NCBI GenBank assembly: GCA_903927005.1
Contig: CAIYLH010000054.1
Span: 1 to 64,000, forward strand
From: an uncultured Pseudomonadota bacterium
GTDB lineage: Bacteria > Pseudomonadota > Gammaproteobacteria > Steroidobacterales > Steroidobacteraceae
Reading direction: 5' to 3'
DNA: 64,000 nt
Below, one piece after another: positions 6,732-47,392 of the stretch. The notes beneath the pieces were generated by a model. It searched no databases and was not told where the DNA came from. It worked only from the letters and a program-made list of their open reading frames with translations. The translations under genes and the position numbers were made by a program. Positions within the stretch are counted from its first letter, which is position 1. Each line of letters starts with the position of its first letter.

Positions 6732-8128
6732 GTCAGCGCGCTCGCATCACCCTGCTGCTGGCCGCGCTACTCGTGACGCTGCCGGCGGCAGCCGCGCCGC
6801 GCGAGCCGGTACCGCCAATGGGCACGCCGCGCGCGCTGACGCTGCCTGCCAAGCGGGAGTTCAGCCTGGCGAACGGCATGCAGGTCACGTTCGTGCCGTT
6901 CGGCACCGTTCCCAAGACCGCGATCATGCTGAACATCGGCACCGGCAACGTCGCCGACGGCGACAAGAACGGCCTTGCCGACCTGGTCGCGCAGCTGCTC
7001 AAGCACGGCGCAGGGGCCCGCGACACCGAGGCGGTAGCGAACCTCGCGGCGGAACTCGGCGGCGAGCTCGACGCCGGCAGCAGCGTCGACCAGTTCGGAA
7101 TCTCACTGGACGTGCTCGCCGAACACGCCACCGACGCCGTCGAGCTGCTTGCTGACGTCGTGCGGCGACCGCGTCTGCCCAGCGCCGATCTGCAGGGCCT
7201 CAAGTCCAGCATGAAGCGCAATCTGGCGATCTCGCGCTCGCAGCCGCAGGCGGTGGCCGGCGAGGCGTTCGCCCATTTAAGGTGGGGCGATACGGCCTAC
7301 GGACTGGGCATGCCGAGCGATGCGCAGATCGACTCGATGACGCTCGCCGACGTGCGTGCGTTCATCAGCAGCGAATTCGGCGCGCGTCGCGCGCACCTGT
7401 ACGTTGCCGGTCAGTTCGATGCAGCAGCCGTCGAGGCAACGCTGCGTCGTGCTTTCGGCGACTGGGCAGCGGGCCCCGCGCCGCGTCATCAGGCGCCGAG
7501 CGCCGTCGGCGGCCAGGTCGTGCAGTTGATCGACCGACCGGGAGCGAAGCAGTCCACCGTCCTGCTGGGCTGCGCCGTAGCGGGCCCGACGCAACCGCGA
7601 TTCATGGACCTGTCGGTCGCCAACGCCTTGTTCGGTGGCACACCGCTGCTGTCGCGTCTGGACCGGAACCTGCGCGAGGACAAGGGCTATACCTACGGCG
7701 TCAACAGCCATCTGATCGCGTACCGCAGCATCGCCGGCTGGACGCTCGCCGCCGACGTCAACACGGCCGATACGGCAGCCGCACTGACCGAGGTGTTCGC
7801 CGAGCTCGCGCGGCTTCGTACTGTCGAGGCCAGCGCCGACGAATTGCGTGCCGTGCAGAACTACCGAGCCGGCAACTTCCTGATTGGTGCCTCGAGCCGT
7901 CAGGGGCTCATCGGCCAGCTGCAGTTCCTGCAGCAGCAGGAACTTGGCGACGATTGGCTGGTGCACTACGTCGATCACCTCAATGCAGTAACGCCCGCCG
8001 ACGTGCGCCGCGCCGCGAGCGAGTCGCTCGATCCCCGGCAGATGGTGCTGGTCATCGTCGGCGACCTCGCCAAGATCAAGCCCGCCCTCCTCGCCCTCGA
8101 GGCTCTGCAGGGCGCCGAATTCCGTTGA
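6728..8128 (+). CDS. M16 family protein, non-catalytic partner
   Basis: This 466-residue secreted M16 homologue has an N-terminal signal peptide (hydrophobic core LLLAALLVTLPAAA). Where the zinc motif should be it reads GLADLVAQLLKHG, so His, Glu and His are replaced by Asp, Ala and Gln and the protein cannot bind zinc in the usual way. The C-terminal half keeps the substrate-handling stretch LREDKGYTYGV typical of M16 second subunits. Paired catalytic and non-catalytic M16 proteins form a heterodimer in several bacterial systems, with this type completing the chamber. It overlaps the active subunit gene by four bases. Confidence 0.9.
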   Translation: MSQRARITLLLAALLVTLPAAAAPREPVPPMGTPRALTLPAKREFSLANGMQVTFVPFGTVPKTAIMLNIGTGNVADGDKNGLADLVAQLLKHGAGARDTEAVANLAAELGGELDAGSSVDQFGISLDVLAEHATDAVELLADVVRRPRLPSADLQGLKSSMKRNLAISRSQPQAVAGEAFAHLRWGDTAYGLGMPSDAQIDSMTLADVRAFISSEFGARRAHLYVAGQFDAAAVEATLRRAFGDWAAGPAPRHQAPSAVGGQVVQLIDRPGAKQSTVLLGCAVAGPTQPRFMDLSVANALFGGTPLLSRLDRNLREDKGYTYGVNSHLIAYRSIAGWTLAADVNTADTAAALTEVFAELARLRTVEASADELRAVQNYRAGNFLIGASSRQGLIGQLQFLQQQELGDDWLVHYVDHLNAVTPADVRRAASESLDPRQMVLVIVGDLAKIKPALLALEALQGAEFR

Positions 8129-8151
8129 CACCCACACGAGCGATCACCGAC

Positions 8152-9768
8152 ATGAGCGCAAATAGCATCGAACGCGACCAGATGGAGTACGACGTCCTGA
8201 TCGTCGGCGGCGGCCCAGCCGGGCTGTCCTGTGCGATCCGGCTCAAGCAGCTCAACGCGGACCTGACGGTCTGCGTGCTGGAGAAGGGCGCCGCGATCGG
8301 CGCGCAAGCCCTGTCGGGCTGCGTGATGGAGCCCCAGCCGCTGGACAAGCTGCTACCGGAGTGGCGCAACAGCCCGCCGGAGATCTGCGTGCCGGCGACG
8401 CGCGACGAATTCAGCCTGCTGACGAAGAAGCGCGCGTTCCGCATCATCACGCCGCCGCAAATGAACAATCACGGCAACTTCATCGTCTCGCTCGGACAGC
8501 TGACGCCCTACATGGCGGCGCAGGCCGAGGCGCTCGGCGTAGACGTGATCGCAGGTTTCGCTGCCGCCATGGCGTTGCACGACGACGCAGGCGCCGTGGT
8601 CGGCGTGCAGATTGGCGACATGGGCATCGACAAGGACGGCAAACCTGGGCCCAACTTCGCTCCCGGCCCGGAGATTCGCGCCCGCACGACCGTGTTCGCG
8701 GAAGGCTCACGCGGCAGCATCACCAAAACGCTGATCGCCAAGTACAGCCTCGATGCCGACAGCTCACCGCAGACCTTTGGACTGGGCTTCAAGGAAATGT
8801 GGCAGCTACCGGAAGGCCGGGTTGAGCCGGGCCTGATTCAGCACACGATCGGCTGGCCGGTGGACCGCAACACCTACGGCGGCAGCTTCCTGTATCACAT
8901 CAATGACAACCGTGTGTATATCGGCTACGTCGCCGGTCTCGACTACAAGGACCCGCGCTTCAAGCCGTTCGAGGCGTTCCAGCAGTTTAAGAATCATCCA
9001 TCGATCAAGAAACTGCTCGACGGCGGCGAACTACTGACCTACGGCGCGCGCACCATCGCAGCTGGCGGCTACCAGTCGCTGCCGAAGGTAGAGATGCCGG
9101 GCGCCATGCTGATCGGCTGTGGCGCGGGGCTGGTCAACGTGCCCAAGGTCAAGGGCGTACACCAGGCGGTCCGCTCAGGCGTACTTGCGGCCGAGCACGT
9201 CGTCGAAACCGGCGGTACTGCTGGCTTCGACGCCCGCTTCCGTGCCTCGCCGGCAATGGACGAACTGCGCAAAGTCCGCAACTTCAAGCCAGCCTTCAAG
9301 AAGGGCTTGTGGTTCGGCCTCGCCAACGGCGGCCTCGAAACGATCACTGGTGGTCGCACGCCGTGGACACTCAAGAACAAGGTCGACTACAAGCAACTGC
9401 AGCGACTGGACCAGTACACCTCGCCCGATCGCGACTGGATTGCAACGCGCGAACTCAAGCCGCGTGATCGCCAGGCGGCGGTCTACTTCGCCGGCAACAC
9501 GCACGACGACGCTCAGCCGGCACATCTGAAGGTCAGTGACACCAGCATCTGCGCGGACCAGTGCGCCAAGGAGTTCGGCAATCCGTGCCAGAACTTCTGC
9601 CCGGCCGGGGTCTACGAAATGGTCGACGACGGTGCCGGTGGCAAGCGCCTGCAGATCAATGCCTCCAACTGCGTCCACTGCAAGGCCTGCGACATCAAGG
9701 ATCCGTACGGGATCATCACCTGGACCACCCCCGAGGGCGGCTCCGGCCCCAACTACTCGAACTTCTGA
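8152..9768 (+). CDS. Electron transfer flavoprotein-ubiquinone oxidoreductase
   Basis: ETF-QO takes electrons from reduced electron-transfer flavoprotein (fed by acyl-CoA and other dehydrogenases) and passes them to ubiquinone at the inner membrane. The 538-residue protein has an N-terminal FAD motif, VLIVGGGPAGLSC, and a C-terminal 4Fe-4S domain whose cysteines are in CAKEFGNPCQNFC and CVHCKACDIKDP. I used the ATG at 8152 because it directly precedes the dinucleotide-binding fold; the frame is open much further upstream but that overlaps the M16 gene. Together with the thiolase and SDR genes it points to fatty or branched-chain acid oxidation. No etfAB is in the window. Confidence 0.95.
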   Translation: MSANSIERDQMEYDVLIVGGGPAGLSCAIRLKQLNADLTVCVLEKGAAIGAQALSGCVMEPQPLDKLLPEWRNSPPEICVPATRDEFSLLTKKRAFRIITPPQMNNHGNFIVSLGQLTPYMAAQAEALGVDVIAGFAAAMALHDDAGAVVGVQIGDMGIDKDGKPGPNFAPGPEIRARTTVFAEGSRGSITKTLIAKYSLDADSSPQTFGLGFKEMWQLPEGRVEPGLIQHTIGWPVDRNTYGGSFLYHINDNRVYIGYVAGLDYKDPRFKPFEAFQQFKNHPSIKKLLDGGELLTYGARTIAAGGYQSLPKVEMPGAMLIGCGAGLVNVPKVKGVHQAVRSGVLAAEHVVETGGTAGFDARFRASPAMDELRKVRNFKPAFKKGLWFGLANGGLETITGGRTPWTLKNKVDYKQLQRLDQYTSPDRDWIATRELKPRDRQAAVYFAGNTHDDAQPAHLKVSDTSICADQCAKEFGNPCQNFCPAGVYEMVDDGAGGKRLQINASNCVHCKACDIKDPYGIITWTTPEGGSGPNYSNF

Positions 9769-33948: not shown

Positions 33949-35376
33949 ATGCAAAGCGCGGAAACCTACAACGATACTGTCGTCAGACAGTTCGCCCTGA
34001 TGACCGTGGTCTGGGGGATCGTCGGCATGCTGGTGGGGGTCATCATCGCCTCCCAGCTGCTGTTCCCGGCCCTGAACTTCGACATCGCCTGGCTCAGCTA
34101 CGGCCGCCTGCGGCCACTGCACACCAATGCCGTGATTTTCGCGTTCGGAGGCAGCGCGCTGTTCTGCACCTCCTACTACATCGTGCAGCGGACCTGCCAC
34201 GCGCGACTGTTTGCCGGGCCGCTGGCAACGTTCACGTTCTGGGGCTGGCAGGCGATCATTCTCGCCGCTGCCATTACCCTGCCGCTCGGCATCACCAGCG
34301 GCAAGGAATACGCCGAACTGGAATGGCCAATTGACCTCGCCATCGCGGTGGTGTGGGTCTGCTACGCGATCGTGTTTCTGGGCACGATCGTCAAGCGCAA
34401 GGTCAAGCACATCTACGTCGCCAACTGGTTCTTCGCGGCGTTCATCATCACCGTTGCAGTGCTGCACATCGTCAACAGCGCCGCGATTCCGGTGACGATG
34501 TGGAAGTCCTACTCCGCCTACGCTGGCGTCGTCGACGCGATGGTGCAGTGGTGGTACGGCCACAACGCGGTCGGATTCTTCCTGACCGCCGGCTTCCTCG
34601 GCATCATGTACTACTTCGTGCCAAAGCAGGCAGGCCGGCCGGTGTACTCGTACCGACTGTCGGTCGTGCACTTCTGGGCGCTGATCTCGGTGTACATGTG
34701 GGCAGGCCCCCACCACCTGATCTATACCTCACTGCCGGACTGGGCGCAGTCGCTCGGCATGGTGTTCTCGCTGATCCTGATCGCGCCATCGTGGGGCGGC
34801 ATGATCAACGGCATCATGACCCTCTCGGGCGCCTGGCATAAGCTGCGCACCGATCCGATCCTGAAGTTCCTGATCGTCTCGCTGTCCTTCTACGGCATGT
34901 CGACGTTCGAAGGGCCGATGATGTCGATCAAGACCGTCAACGCGCTGTCGCACTACACCGACTGGACGATCGGCCACGTGCATTCCGGCGCCCTCGGCTG
35001 GGTCGCCATGGTGTCTATCGGCGCGCTCTACGCACTGATCCCGCGTCTGTACGGGCGCACTGAAATGCACAGCACGAAGCTCATCGACATTCACTTCTGG
35101 GTGATGACCATCGGCGTCGTGCTGTATGTCGCGGCAATGTGGATCTCGGGCGTAACGCAGGGCCTCATGTGGCGCGCGACGAACGTCGACGGCACGCTGA
35201 CCTACACCTTCGTCGAGGCGCTCAAGGCCACCTACCCGTTCTACGCGGTACGCCTGATCGGCGGCGTGATGGTGCTGTCGGGCATGTTCCTGATGGCCTA
35301 CAACGTCTGGAAGACGATCACCGCACCGAATGCCTCGACCGTTGCGCAGCCGGTGCCCGCGCCGGCGCACGGCTGA
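33949..35376 (+). CDS. ccoN: cbb3-type cytochrome c oxidase subunit I
   Basis: CcoN is the catalytic subunit of the high-affinity cbb3 oxidase in the inner membrane and holds two b-type haems and the copper. The 475-residue protein has about twelve transmembrane segments. The haem-binding His are in [14 protein letters not shown] and in [17 protein letters not shown], copper and haem His are in [11 protein letters not shown], and a His pair is in HVHSGALGW. It starts the eleven-kilobase cco locus. Expression in low oxygen is expected, probably through the FixLJ system encoded downstream. Confidence 0.97.
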
Positions 35377-43284: not shown

Positions 43285-45207
43285 TTGCCTACCAACGCTG
43301 ATCCCGCCACTGCCGCGAGCCACTCGCAGCAGGTCACCAACGAACTCAAGGCCCTACTCGATGCCGCGGTCGATGGCGTTATCGTCATCGACCACAAGGG
43401 CAGCATCGAGACGTTCAACGCCGCGGCCGAACGGCTGTTCGGCTACACCGCCGCCGAAGTGGCCGGCAAGAACATCAACATGCTGATGCCGGATCCCTAC
43501 AGCTCCGGGCACGACCAGTACATGCAGAATTACCAGCGCACCGGCAAGGCGCGCATCATCGGCATCGGGCGAGAAATCTCGGCCCAGCGCCGGGACGGCA
43601 CGATATTCCCCGCCTCGCTCGCCGTCGGCGAAATCCCCGGCTCGGGTGCAAAGCGCTTTGTCGGCTTCCTCCACGACATCAGTGCCCGCAAGGCAGCCAC
43701 CGACGCACTACGCCGCGAGCGCGATCGGGCGCAAAGCTACCTTGACCTCGCGCAGGTGATGCTGCTCGCCATCGCCAATTCCGGCCACATCACGCTGATC
43801 AACCGCAAGGGCTGCGAAATCCTCGGTTACACCGAGACCGAGCTGGTCGGCCGGGACTGGTTCGAGCAATGCATCGCCGAGCCGCACCGCGAAGCCGCTC
43901 GCGCGACGCTGGCAGCTACACTGCGCGGCGACACCAGCTTGCTCGAATACTCGGAGGACGAGGTCGTCACAAGCGATGGCGAGATAAAGCTGATCGCCTG
44001 GCGCACGACCCGCGTGACCGACGAGGAAGGCCGCGCGATCGGCACACTCAGTTCCGGTGAGGACGTCACCGACCAGCGCCATGCCGAACAGGCGCTCAAA
44101 CGCAGCGAGCAGCTGCTACGCAGCGCACAGGCAATCGCAAAGCTCGGAAACTTCGAAATCCACGAGCCTGATGGCGCAGCGCTCTGGTCGCAGCAGGTCT
44201 ACGACATCACCGGCCGCGACCCGGACTCGGGAGCGTTACTACTCAAGGAATACGCCGCCGACTGCGTGCACCCCGACGACCGCGCGCGCTTCCTGCACGA
44301 CTGGCGCCGCGGCGTCGCGGAGACCGGCAGGATCGATCTGGAATACCGGATCGTCCGACCGGACGGCAGCACGCGCGTCGTGCAGACGCTCGCGCAAACC
44401 GTACCCAGCAACGACGCGCAGTCGCTGATCATCACCGGCACGGTGCATGACATCACTGAGCGCAAGCTCGCCGAGGAAGAGCTGCGCCTGGGCCAGGAGC
44501 GCCTGACCCACGTCGCCCGCCTGTCGACGATGGGCGAAATGGCCACCGGACTCGCCCACGAAATCAACCAGCCACTGACCGCAATAGCAACCTATGCGCA
44601 GGCCCTGGTACGCATGATGGACTCCCCTTCCGGCGGCGAGCGCGCGGAGCTGCGTGAAGCACTGGTGCAGATCACCTCTCAGGCGCTGCGCGCCGGCGAG
44701 GTAATCCGTCGCCTGCGCGCCTTCGTCAAGAATCGCGCAGCGAAGACCGAGACGCTCGACCTGAACCGGCTAATCGAGGACCTGCGGGTGCTCGCCGAAC
44801 CAGATGCCCGGGTCAACGACGTTCGGTTAATACTGACACTGGCGCCGTCCGTACCGCCGGTCGCAGCGGACCCGGTGCAGATTCAGCAGGTACTGCTCAA
44901 CCTCGTCCGCAACGCGATCGACGCGCTGCTTGAAGCGCCCGGCGCACCGCGCCAGGTCGTGGTGACCACCCAACTGGTCGGCCAGGACGTGGAAGTCTGC
45001 GTGATCGACCAAGCCGGTGGCATCCCACCGGAGGTCGCCGTGAACCTGTTTAACCCGTTCTTTACGACCAAGGCCACCGGCACCGGGCTGGGCCTTGCCA
45101 TATCGCACTCGATTATTCGCGCGCATCGCGGCAAACTGGGCCATCGACCCACGCCGGGGGGCGGTACCACGTTTCATTTCACGCTGCCCCAGCTGCCAGG
45201 AGGCTGA
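43285..45207 (+). CDS. fixL: FixL-type haem-PAS oxygen sensor histidine kinase
   Basis: This 640-residue soluble kinase senses oxygen through haem in its first PAS domain (about residues 18-140). His76 in SSGHDQYM matches the proximal haem ligand of FixL and Arg96 in IIGIGRE matches the oxygen-switch Arg. Two more PAS domains follow (about 145-265 and 275-400). The kinase core has the phospho-acceptor His425 in GLAHEINQPLTAIA, the N-box LLNLVRNAIDALL and the G-boxes DQAGGIPPE and GTGLGLAISHSI. The start is TTG at 43285; no ATG or GTG precedes the PAS domain. Its stop overlaps fixJ. By analogy low oxygen activates the kinase, and the adjacent cco operon is the likely target. Confidence 0.93.
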   Translation: MPTNADPATAASHSQQVTNELKALLDAAVDGVIVIDHKGSIETFNAAAERLFGYTAAEVAGKNINMLMPDPYSSGHDQYMQNYQRTGKARIIGIGREISAQRRDGTIFPASLAVGEIPGSGAKRFVGFLHDISARKAATDALRRERDRAQSYLDLAQVMLLAIANSGHITLINRKGCEILGYTETELVGRDWFEQCIAEPHREAARATLAATLRGDTSLLEYSEDEVVTSDGEIKLIAWRTTRVTDEEGRAIGTLSSGEDVTDQRHAEQALKRSEQLLRSAQAIAKLGNFEIHEPDGAALWSQQVYDITGRDPDSGALLLKEYAADCVHPDDRARFLHDWRRGVAETGRIDLEYRIVRPDGSTRVVQTLAQTVPSNDAQSLIITGTVHDITERKLAEEELRLGQERLTHVARLSTMGEMATGLAHEINQPLTAIATYAQALVRMMDSPSGGERAELREALVQITSQALRAGEVIRRLRAFVKNRAAKTETLDLNRLIEDLRVLAEPDARVNDVRLILTLAPSVPPVAADPVQIQQVLLNLVRNAIDALLEAPGAPRQVVVTTQLVGQDVEVCVIDQAGGIPPEVAVNLFNPFFTTKATGTGLGLAISHSIIRAHRGKLGHRPTPGGGTTFHFTLPQLPGG

Positions 45208-45827
45208 TGATGAAGGAAAAGCCCGCTACTGTTTTCGTCGTCGACGACGATGACGCCGTACGCACCTCACTACGACTGCTGTTGAAGTCCGTCGGCCTGC
45301 CGGTCGAGACGTTCGCCTCCGCACAGGAATTCGTCGACTCGTTCGACGCCGAACGGGCAGGCTGTCTGGTGCTCGATATCCGCATGCCCGGCATGAGCGG
45401 ACTGGAGCTGCAGCAGCGCCTGAACGAGATCCACGCGATCGTGCCGATCGTGTTCATCACCGGCCACGGCGATGTGCCCATGGCGGTCGAAGCGATGCAG
45501 CACGGCGCCGTTGACTTCATCCAGAAGCCATTCCGTGACCAGGACCTGATCGATCGCATCAACCAGGCGCTCGAGAAGGACCGTGACAACCGCGCAGGCC
45601 TGAAGGAGCGCGACGCAATTCGCCGCCGAATGCAGCAGCTGACGCCGCGGGAGCGCGAGGTGCTGGATCTGGTCACGCAAGGCAAGGCCAACAAGGTAAT
45701 CGCCGGCGACCTGAACGTCAGCCAACGTACGGTGGAAATTCACCGTGCCCGCGTCATGGAAAAGATGGGGGCTTCATCGCTCGCCCACCTAGTGCGGATG
45801 GTCATCGAAGCGGAACGCGCGACTTAG
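45207..45827 (+). CDS. fixJ: FixJ-type response regulator
   Basis: This 206-residue transcription factor is the partner of the FixL kinase just upstream. The receiver has VVDDDDAV, the phospho-acceptor Asp57 in CLVLDIRMPGMSG, ITGHGD and IQKPF. The LuxR-type HTH (LTPREREVLDLVTQGKANKV, VSQRTVEIHRARVMEKM) fills the C-terminus. An AGGAGG site precedes the tandem ATG. Phosphorylated FixJ would activate microaerobic genes, most plausibly ccoNOQP, the following receiver gene, or both. Confidence 0.95.
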   Translation: MMKEKPATVFVVDDDDAVRTSLRLLLKSVGLPVETFASAQEFVDSFDAERAGCLVLDIRMPGMSGLELQQRLNEIHAIVPIVFITGHGDVPMAVEAMQHGAVDFIQKPFRDQDLIDRINQALEKDRDNRAGLKERDAIRRRMQQLTPREREVLDLVTQGKANKVIAGDLNVSQRTVEIHRARVMEKMGASSLAHLVRMVIEAERAT

Positions 45828-45837
45828 ACCCCAGAAT

Positions 45838-45883
45838 CTAGGTAATAGTCCCAATATGGGCTCAGCGGGCTCACCGGGATACT
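45838..45883 (+). promoter_or_regulatory. Candidate activator site and -10 box behind fixJ
   Basis: CTAGGTAATAGTCCCAATA (45838-45856) shares a GGGAC-TA core, on the other strand, with a site upstream of ccoN. GATACT at 45878-45883 could be a -10 box, placing the site near -40. If real, translation of the receiver gene must start downstream of the ATG at 45856. Confidence 0.25.
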
Positions 45884-45895
45884 GGTACGAAGGAG

Positions 45896-45922
45896 CGCTG
45901 CCGACGTTCACCGTCGGCAGCG
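45896..45922 (+). terminator. Perfect hairpin in the leader of the Glu-receiver gene
   Basis: CGCTGCCGACG and CGTCGGCAGCG pair perfectly over 11 bases around a TTCAC loop. There is no T-run. It could end part of the fixLJ transcript or regulate the downstream receiver gene. Confidence 0.4.
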
Positions 45923-45933
45923 TCGACTTCCCC

Positions 45934-46347
45934 ATGTCCAGCCAAGCAGCAGACCTAGTGATGAAGACGGCCACCGTGGTTAGCGTCGTTGATCCGGACG
46001 CGAACGTGCGCCGCAGCGTCGCCAAGCTGCTGCGCGCGCTCGGCGCACAGATCGAGGAGTTCGCCACCGCGCGCGAATTTCTGGACCGTCTGCCGACCAC
46101 CATTCCCGTCGTGCTGATCGCCGAGGCCCGCCTGCCCGACATGCCGGGACTGACGCTGCTGCAGGAACTACGCGCCCGCGGCCTGGAGATGCCGGTGATC
46201 CTGCTGTCGAGCGATGCCGATGTGACCAGCGCGGTCACGGCGATGCGCGCAGGCGCCCTGGACTTCATCGAGAAGCCCTTTATCGACCGTGCCCTCGTGG
46301 CCCAGCTGAGCCCACTGCTAGAGCTCGATGGCAAGCCAGCCCACTGA
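45934..46347 (+). CDS. FixJ-like receiver with Glu at the phospho-acceptor position, no output domain
   Basis: This 137-residue stand-alone receiver resembles the FixJ receiver along its length (KLLRALGAQIEEFATAREFL, LDFIEKPF). In FixJ the acceptor motif is LDIRMPGMSG; here it is AEARLPDMPG, so the Asp is replaced by Glu64. One acidic-pocket residue is Pro (VVDPDANV) and the Thr of the switch is Ser92, while Lys114 is kept. Such a receiver cannot be phosphorylated normally and may mimic the active state or compete for FixL or another partner. I chose ATG 45934; ATG 45856 would include a hairpin, and 45961 is also possible. The last 20 bases overlap the iron transporter gene. Confidence 0.8.
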   Translation: MSSQAADLVMKTATVVSVVDPDANVRRSVAKLLRALGAQIEEFATAREFLDRLPTTIPVVLIAEARLPDMPGLTLLQELRARGLEMPVILLSSDADVTSAVTAMRAGALDFIEKPFIDRALVAQLSPLLELDGKPAH

Positions 46348-47392
46348 ATCGCCGCCGGAGAATCCGGCCGCCGCGCACTCCAGTTGGTACCACGAGCTCG
46401 AATCGGCCTGGCTCTATCGCCGGCTCGCCGAGATCGAGCGTGACCCGCCGAAGCAGCAGCTGTTCCTGAAACTCGCCGCCGCCGCCGAGGATCAGGCGGG
46501 CACCTGGGCACGATACCTGCCCACACCAACGCCAACGTTCCAGCCCAGCACACGAGCACGACTTGTAGAAAGGCTGACTCGCGTGCTCGGGCCCAAGCGC
46601 ATGCGCACGGCGCTGATCGCACTGAAACTACGCGGACTGTCGGTCTACAACGCGGGGCCAGGACCGGGTCACGCGATGCCGCAAACCATCGAGGACATCG
46701 GCCGGCGCCACCAGAACGTGGCTGGCGGCAACCTACGCGCGGCAGTGTTCGGCATCAACGACGGACTGCTGTCGAACGCGAGCCTGATTCTCGGTGTAGC
46801 GGGCGCCGGCGTCGACGCACGCTTCGTTCTCACCAGCGGTGTTGCCGGGCTACTGGCCGGCGCACTGTCGATGGCCGCCGGCGAATACGTCTCGGTGCGC
46901 TCGCAGCGCGAGATGTACGAATACCAGATCGCCCTCGAGCGCGAGGAGCTGGCCGAATATCCCGACGAGGAGGCCGAGGAGCTGGTGCTGATCTACGCCG
47001 CCCGCGGCATGGACGTCGAGCAGGCACGCACCCTTGCACAGACGCTGATCAAGGATCCCGAGCAGGCGCTCGACGCGCTGGCGCGCGAAGAGCTCGGCAT
47101 CAACCCGAACGATCTGGGCTCGCCGTGGGGCGCAGCGAGCGCCTCGTTCGTGGCGTTCGCCGCCGGCGCAACGCTGCCGCTGGTGCCATTCCTGCTGGGA
47201 CTGCCACTGGCCCGCGGAACATTCACCGCCGCCGCACTGACGCTGTTCGCGCTATACGCGATCGGCATGGTGCTGAGCCTGTTTACCGGCCGCAATGCCT
47301 GGCTCGGCGGTCTGCGCATGATGGCGATCGGCGCTGCCGCCGGTGCCGCCACGTTCCTGATCGGACGCCTGCTGGGCGTCGCGGTCGGCTGA
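46328..47392 (+). CDS. MbfA-like VIT1/CCC1 family transporter with ferritin-like N-domain
   Basis: This 354-residue protein has a helical N-terminal part of the rubrerythrin/ferritin-like type (about residues 15-65, ELESAWLYRRLAEIE, FLKLAAAAEDQAGTW) and a C-terminal VIT/CCC1 membrane domain of five helices (GGNLRAAVFGINDGLLSNAS, GALSMAAGEYVSVRSQREM, then three near 270-350). MbfA proteins export iron from the cytosol and their ferritin domain binds iron. Here the usual ExxH of that domain reads as AxxQ, so its di-iron site seems lost. The gene overlaps the Glu-receiver gene by 20 bases. Iron or manganese is the likely substrate. Confidence 0.85.
   Translation: MASQPTESPPENPAAAHSSWYHELESAWLYRRLAEIERDPPKQQLFLKLAAAAEDQAGTWARYLPTPTPTFQPSTRARLVERLTRVLGPKRMRTALIALKLRGLSVYNAGPGPGHAMPQTIEDIGRRHQNVAGGNLRAAVFGINDGLLSNASLILGVAGAGVDARFVLTSGVAGLLAGALSMAAGEYVSVRSQREMYEYQIALEREELAEYPDEEAEELVLIYAARGMDVEQARTLAQTLIKDPEQALDALAREELGINPNDLGSPWGAASASFVAFAAGATLPLVPFLLGLPLARGTFTAAALTLFALYAIGMVLSLFTGRNAWLGGLRMMAIGAAAGAATFLIGRLLGVAVG

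Follow-up and report, generated by a model that had tools for sequence, protein, structure and literature searches.

What is the function of a receiver protein that is encoded directly behind fixL and fixJ, has glutamate in place of the phospho-acceptor aspartate and ends without an output domain? A gene of this kind is found in a 64,000-nucleotide stretch of DNA, referred to here as the window, from an uncultured member of the Steroidobacteraceae (contig CAIYLH010000054.1). A first-pass annotation had treated the glutamate as the key feature of a permanently on-like or decoy receiver that might tune FixL output, and had tied the gene to a downstream gene for an iron transporter.

Organization of the locus and properties of the receiver

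The genes and sites of the locus are listed in Table 1. FixJ of the window scored 258.4 bits against the NCBI FixJ model, above its cut-off of 255 bits, and FixL reached 372 bits against the rhizobial FixL model, under the cut-off of 850 bits. A stretch in this FixL resembles the haem-pocket motif of known FixLs. The end of fixJ at 45827 is separated by 106 nt from the start of the receiver gene, the stop codon of which lies in a 20-base overlap with the VIT1 gene, in agreement with the first-pass annotation.

Table 1. Features of the fixLJ locus, with positions in the window
Feature	Position	Strand	Basis
cbb3 oxidase cluster ahead of fixL (ccoN, ccoO, ccoP, ccoG)	ccoN at 33949	+	
Heavy-metal P-type ATPase within the cbb3 oxidase cluster	39434	+	
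DUF6763 protein, small and acidic, between the cbb3 cluster and fixL		+	
fixL (three PAS domains, HisKA, HATPase); start codon uncertain	43285..45207	+	Pfam
fixJ (receiver and LuxR-type DNA-binding domain, GerE)	45207..45827	+	Pfam
Predicted FixJ-binding box, CTAGGTAATAGTCCCA	45838..45853	+	Shared by 8 close-clade loci; S. meliloti locus scanned with matrix
Predicted -10 element, GATACT, 40 nt after box start	45878..45883	+	Same spacing in 8/8 boxed loci
Single-domain receiver, FixT-like, 137 amino acids plus stop	45934..46347	+	Pfam Response_reg; AlphaFold2 model; homologue family
Asp20-Pro21-Asp22 codons; Pro at second acidic-pocket site (FixJ Asp11)	45991..45999	+	Sequence, FixJ alignment
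GAG, Glu64, phospho-acceptor site (aligned with FixJ Asp54)	46123..46125	+	Sequence, FixJ alignment
VIT1-family transporter gene	46328..47392	+	Pfam VIT1, E 3.2e-69

Pfam matched Response_reg to residues 16-125 of the receiver with 75 bits (cut-off 30.2) and yielded no second domain at E<=0.01; the GerE domain that is present in FixJ of the window is lacking from the 137-residue protein. In an alignment with S. meliloti FixJ, the receiver ran at an offset of 10, with Asp20-Pro21 corresponding to Asp10-Asp11 and Glu64 to Asp54, Ser92 standing at the site of Thr82, and Lys114 retained as the counterpart of Lys104. The missing output domain, the glutamate (GAG) at the acceptor site and the proline in the acidic pocket, all described in the first-pass annotation, were confirmed, and the protein is an aspartate-less receiver. 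From receiver chemistry, we infer that it would neither bind Mg2+ nor be phosphorylated.

The AlphaFold2 model of the receiver showed a normal receiver fold (pLDDT 84.2, pTM 0.79). The solved structures closest to it in sequence and in fold were receivers, FixJ among them (PDB 1d5w, 5xso, 5xt2). The top rows of VIA-align were a mixture of active and inactive receivers and allowed no conformation to be assigned. An alternative in-frame ATG at 45856 would give a product of 163 amino acids. We preferred the start of the 137-residue form because the predicted promoter lies inside the additional stretch and because Met is kept at this position in all seven close-clade sequences compared.

Position beside fixLJ

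When loci found in a scan of species genomes were ranked by similarity to the receiver alone, the 13 most similar all adjoined fixLJ; 12 followed fixJ in the same orientation, and the remaining one (L042) was divergent from fixL. The annotation of S. meliloti ml56 gives the order fixL, fixJ, fixT, a helix-turn-helix gene, which we take to be fixK, another gene, and then ccoN and ccoO, with fixT being the next gene after fixL-fixJ and situated 98 nt downstream of fixJ. FixT is reported to consist of one receiver domain and to inhibit the autophosphorylation of FixL (PMC7078487). Two points on which the first-pass annotation had based the novelty of the protein, namely that nothing of this kind had been described in this position and that its fold differs from that of FixT, therefore fall, given the placement of S. 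meliloti fixT and the receiver fold of FixT.

Loss of the second pocket acid in the receiver family

A homologue search returned 263 proteins at E<=1e-10, and residues were counted in the 120 that were listed, including the window's own. Among the 107 listed homologues of 180 amino acids or less, the second pocket site was occupied by Pro in 85, Ala in 11, Thr in five, Ser in three and Gly in one, with two gaps and no Asp at all, and the acceptor site by Glu in 85, Asp in 20, and Gly and Val in one each. The 13 longer, LuxR-type homologues listed had Asp at both sites.

A second set was assembled by locus. Forty receivers were called behind 99 FixJs, L035 (inside a longer frame) was added by hand, and L085 was left out for a gap of >500 nt. 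From 45 receiver rows we drew 33 mostly gammaproteobacterial receivers, leaving out six alphaproteobacterial FixTs (two from Caulobacter, that of S. meliloti, L098, L102 and L108), a fragment (L013), a long-branched sequence labelled Acidobacteriota (L066), and four sequences that group with Alphaproteobacteria in the tree (L067, L083, L084, L094). The second pocket Asp was present in none of the 33, versus 97 of the 99 FixJs; the site held Pro (13), Ala (6), Ser (6), Gly (4), Thr (2), Arg (1) or Glu (1). The acceptor site held Glu (15), Asp (12), Asn (2), Ser (2), Ala (1) or Thr (1), and at least 11 changes of this residue were required on the tree. Only three of the 45 rows, L083, L084 and L094, keep the second pocket Asp, all of them outside the 33. 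In the tree, which took in 52 of the 99 FixJ rows, the 33 receivers fell on one side of a single branch with support of 90/87, below the program's star, and the FixJs of the same genomes fell apart from them.

The receiver is thus one of a conserved family of proteins, in which the loss that is constant is that of a metal ligand, the second pocket Asp, with Glu being the commonest but an exchangeable residue at the acceptor site. Given that Asp and Glu seem interchangeable there, Glu is probably not required as a phosphate mimic, and probably not essential. The emphasis of the first-pass annotation on Glu was thus not supported, and Glu was rejected as a family-defining feature because the acceptor residue varies and has changed repeatedly on the tree. 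A strain-specific or sequencing change was also ruled out: the acceptor codon is GAG in seven of seven close genomes, and the same replacement recurs among the neighbours of fixLJ in relatives. Asp at this position in relatives, which the annotation had named as a refuting observation, is carried by a minority of the short homologues listed.

Fourteen columns were invariant across 54 aligned relatives of the receiver. Within the 33 receivers, helix 1, which is expected to face the kinase, showed a conservation of 0.45, versus 0.74 for helix 4 and strand 5.

Two further kinds of protein were encountered. Sphingomonads and a Caulobacter (L083, L084, L094, L067) encode another kind of stand-alone receiver behind the fixLJ pair, with the acceptor Asp in four of four and the second pocket Asp in three of four. 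L105:3788-4573 encodes a two-domain FixJ-like regulator with Glu at the acceptor site (VVEARMMG) and an Asp-Glu pocket.

Evolutionary constraint and distribution

For 21 pairs from seven close genomes, median values for the receiver were dN 0.264, dS 0.774 and dN/dS 0.36, and those for FixJ were 0.018, 0.482 and 0.041; the ratios are rough because dS is high. The receiver is constrained but evolves fast, its dN being about 15-fold higher than the value for FixJ. Among 18 relatives with a strong FixL (>600 bits), 12 have the receiver, five (G002, G006, G013, G014, G036) lack it, and in one (G004) the contig ends.

Predicted FixJ box and promoter

Alignment of the fixJ-receiver intergenic region from 12 loci revealed CTA(A/G)GTA followed 40 nt on by GATACT (AATACT once) in eight loci; the remaining four have GATACT without the box. 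The whole pattern, sought with one mismatch in 60 relatives, matched 14 genomes. Eight sites lay directly before the receiver, one in each of the eight close-clade genomes (G000, G001, G003, G005, G008, G010, G012, G034), and the other six were on contigs other than that with the genome's best receiver-like match. As a control, the reversed pattern was searched for as well and was matched 33 times in the 60 genomes (hand count). The more distant receivers among the 60 relatives had no match at this stringency. In the window's own genome, a 22-nt box pattern with up to three mismatches found two sites, that of the receiver and one with three mismatches elsewhere, versus one control match.

We built a 16-bp matrix from the eight boxes and scanned both strands with it. 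The top site in the 8,318-bp S. meliloti fixLJT locus was CTAAGTAATTTCCCTT, with 15.6 bits (next, 11.3), and it covers the FixJ-binding site upstream of fixK, TAAGTAATTTCCCTTA (Kurashima-Ito 2005 as quoted in PMC4999443). It is located where fixT ends, ahead of the following gene and not ahead of fixT itself. Of the other alphaproteobacterial loci scanned, L098 and the near-identical L102 and L112 also had their top matrix site directly behind fixT, and L108 did not.

Among loci without the receiver, matrix scores were higher in seven with a CRP/FNR gene behind fixJ than in 50 without (rank test, p=3e-5), with six of the seven and three of the 50 reaching 10 bits, a threshold chosen after the scores were seen. 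Six of the seven CRP/FNR genes were submitted to Pfam and all six were CRP-type. These seven loci are L044, L045, L047, L056, L068, L072 and L100, several labelled Nevskiaceae, and the box in six of them parallels that at S. meliloti fixK. The fixLJ layout thus recurs with either a CRP/FNR (fixK-like) gene or a putative brake behind fixJ.

Scores above those of the 50 were also seen for the 33 receiver loci that had not been used in training (p=0.005); only two of the 33 had a box with p<=0.02 singly. In L042, where the receiver lies across from fixL, the highest-scoring site of the 14.4 kb, at 18.6 bits, precedes the receiver, with AACACT at the same distance of 40 nt. This locus (L042:6934-7411 and 7404-8442; CP070716.1, label Gemmatimonadota) has the receiver divergent from fixL and the box before the receiver. 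A second box-like site there, of 14.2 bits, is found at the receiver end, before a gene judged by eye to encode a ferredoxin-like oxidoreductase.

Of the eight boxes, that of the window scored lowest, with 10.7 bits when left out of the matrix. A loose form of the box pattern alone occurred eight times in the window, against 5.97 expected, and is no rarer than chance. A standard scan found no sigma-70 consensus promoter. Around the two CRP/FNR genes found in the window's genome (L176, L177), no site exceeded 10 bits in the stretches scanned, with one weak site of 6.8 bits upstream of L176. On the basis of the conserved box and -10 element, we predict that the receiver is transcribed by FixJ from its own promoter.

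Other elements were observed in the same region. A perfect hairpin, GCTGCCGACG-TTCAC-CGTCGGCAGC, occupies 45897-45921 in the predicted leader just before the receiver start. It was rejected as a conserved RNA element, being strong in the window only (z -4.7) and at z 0.9 to -1.1 in seven relatives. FNR-type boxes (TTGATNNNNATCAA, up to two mismatches) numbered 13 in the whole window, against 5.07 expected (100 shuffles, largest 11); none was an exact copy, and the best, at 34918, lies inside ccoN.

Relation to the VIT1 transporter gene

MbfA consists of an N-terminal ferritin-like domain and a VIT1 domain. In the downstream protein, called MbfA-like in the first-pass annotation, Pfam placed a VIT1 domain at residues 136-347 and gave no ferritin-like match at E<=0.01 in residues 1-135. 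Given their overlap, the receiver and VIT1 genes are probably co-transcribed in the window. A VIT gene was present in 16 of the 99 FixJ loci, each time beside a receiver (L035 by hand). Among 15 stretches fetched from relatives, eight had the receiver without VIT, four had VIT behind fixJ without the receiver (G014, G006, G002, G009), one had both and two had neither. The two genes are separable, and the functional tie to the transporter proposed earlier is not supported by these counts. In four genomes of the same genus (L161, L162, L163, L169), which have the order fixL-fixJ-VIT with no receiver between, no FixJ box above 7.2 bits was found before VIT.

Probable function and alternative explanations

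We consider it probable that the receiver is a FixT-like feedback inhibitor that is driven by FixJ from its own promoter, binds FixL and blocks its autophosphorylation. By analogy with FixT and Osp, FixL and FixJ would become active at low O2, levels of the receiver, and probably also of the VIT transporter, would rise under phosphorylated FixJ, and binding of the receiver to FixL would keep autophosphorylation of the kinase in check. The control by FixJ is read from sequence, and the inhibition of FixL is drawn from FixT and Osp, which lack these pocket acids and are reported to be kinase inhibitors that are not phosphorylated (PMC7078487, PMC9430884). The fixT position, the loss of the second pocket acid, the conserved box, the constraint on the sequence and the single tree branch argue for such a brake; the less conserved helix 1, the weak box of the window, the absence of the receiver from five of the 18 strong-FixL genomes, the distance from FixT profiles, the S. 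meliloti box behind fixT and the Val at the site of FixT C64 weaken the case. A FixL-tuning role, as suggested in the first-pass annotation, is nevertheless the best-supported reading, pointed to by position, pocket losses and predicted promoter.

A more specific scenario is tentative, and we regard it as doubtful: a gammaproteobacterial anti-kinase for FixL may have arisen from a gutted FixJ receiver, independently of FixT in Alphaproteobacteria, in many lineages with Glu and the lost metal ligand together (the combination made in the laboratory as PhoB D10A/D53E) forming an always-armed lock, and with one FixJ promoter driving both the brake and a metal transporter.

The main rival is a phosphomimic, in which Glu and the lost second acid hold the receiver permanently in the active shape and it pairs with FixJ through the face formed by helix 4 and strand 5, either enhancing FixJ dimers or poisoning them. 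In its favour, PhoB with this pair of replacements (D10A/D53E) is constitutively active according to the title of PDB 2jb9, conservation within the family is highest in helix 4 and strand 5, and Glu is the commonest acceptor residue in the short homologues listed; this face is, however, well kept in FixJ too, and a function that depended on Glu would not be conserved in a family whose acceptor residue varies, with Asp in 20 of the 107 listed and in 12 of the 33, and other residues in six of the 33. The corresponding D62E change in VieB moreover gave a weaker inhibitor (PMC4352251). We consider this explanation unlikely.

Rather less likely still is a passive decoy that occupies the docking face of FixL and slows transfer to FixJ while leaving autophosphorylation untouched. 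Such a role would suit a FixJ-like receiver encoded beside fixLJ that is not expected to take phosphate, but the closest tested protein of this layout, C. crescentus FixT, is reported to inhibit autophosphorylation and not to block transfer to FixJ (PMC7078487). A role directed at the VIT transporter or at metal status, as partner or sensor, instead of at FixL seems very improbable, the overlap of the two genes and the VIT genes that always adjoin a receiver in the FixJ loci being set against the 12 of 15 stretches with one gene and not the other. Least credible is a FixJ paralogue that is in decay and no longer has a function, for although dN is high and five strong-FixL relatives lack the gene, its open frame, dN/dS, invariant columns, conserved promoter element and single branch all speak against decay.

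If the receiver is indeed a FixT-like brake on FixL, kinase inhibition by single-domain receivers, which the authors of the Osp study consider possibly common (PMC9430884), would extend to a broad gammaproteobacterial group. The accompanying sequence rule would be loss of the second pocket acid with Asp and Glu interchangeable at the acceptor site, and the predicted FixJ promoter would allow the loop to be tested in Povalibacter uvarum DSM 26723, a cultured relative in the 14-kb locus of which no VIT gene was found.

Comparison with known systems

In a survey of aspartate-less receivers, Asp was most often replaced by Glu (26%), and only 29% had an acidic residue at the site of the second acid (PMC4395418). 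The receiver family shows the same trends, Glu being commonest and the second acid often lost, whereas that broad class, as described in the survey, is set by the missing Asp and has no common function. The receiver domain of FixJ, among the nearest solved sequences and folds, has retained both its acceptor Asp and the Asp residues of the pocket and is joined to a DNA-binding domain. VieB of Vibrio cholerae is also a receiver-containing kinase inhibitor in Gammaproteobacteria; it is larger, contains a TPR region and retains its acceptor Asp (PMC4352251). Osp of Rhodobacter sphaeroides, an inhibitor of CckA, resembles the receiver in standing alone, in having lost metal-binding acids and in forming a negative loop with its own regulator, and differs in acting on another kinase, in keeping the acceptor Asp and in having lost the Lys that the window's receiver keeps (PMC9430884). 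The missing pocket acids could, according to its authors, explain why Osp is unphosphorylated, and FixTs lack them as well (PMC9430884).

FixT remains the closest parallel. Its phosphorylation was reportedly not seen, and the identity between FixT of S. meliloti and that of C. crescentus is only 21.5% (PMC7078487). The second pocket site is Pro or Ala in six alphaproteobacterial FixTs, and FixT of Caulobacter sp. HMWF025 reads DPD, as does the window's receiver; the Caulobacter FixTs were assigned by their place near fixLJ and a Cys motif. FixT of L102, a record carrying the label S. meliloti 4H41, shares 99% identity with a plasmid copy from S. fredii GR64 and about 50-56% with the S. meliloti copies listed, which indicates a transferred plasmid or a label problem.

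The two proteins also differ. FixT has an acceptor Asp where the receiver has Glu, and the helix 4 motif is kept in the receiver whereas S. meliloti FixT is short there. The broadly conserved C64 of C. crescentus FixT corresponds to Val60, and the four-Cys motif of FixT is lacking. Cys was found at the C64 site in 104 of the 107 short homologues listed; as a FixT signature, Cys60 was ruled out, given that FixJ of the window has Cys there too. Comparison with alphaproteobacterial FixT profiles gave 52.8 and 65.4 for the receiver family and 56.5 and 73.3 for alphaproteobacterial FixJ, FixT profiles thus being somewhat closer to the latter than to the gammaproteobacterial receivers. A tree uniting the receivers and alphaproteobacterial FixT in one clade was not rejected (p-AU 0.442), and the profiles showed no special closeness between the two. 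Foldseek with a low-confidence model of S. meliloti FixT (pLDDT 66.9) gave no match at E<=0.001, with receivers among the best rows. Titles and abstract openings of the open-access papers listed described no gammaproteobacterial FixT, no relative was confirmed in viral contigs, and matches in plasmid records were all below 60% identity, the five shown being labelled other response regulators or kinases.

Given the Val at the C64 site, the lack of profile closeness, the p-AU value and an anti-kinase activity that is a prediction, we do not file the receiver as FixT, although on present evidence it would work like FixT. Both are single receiver domains without an output domain, with the second pocket acid lost and a gene beside fixLJ, and induction by FixLJ, reported for FixT (PMC7078487), is predicted from the promoter sequence for the window's receiver.
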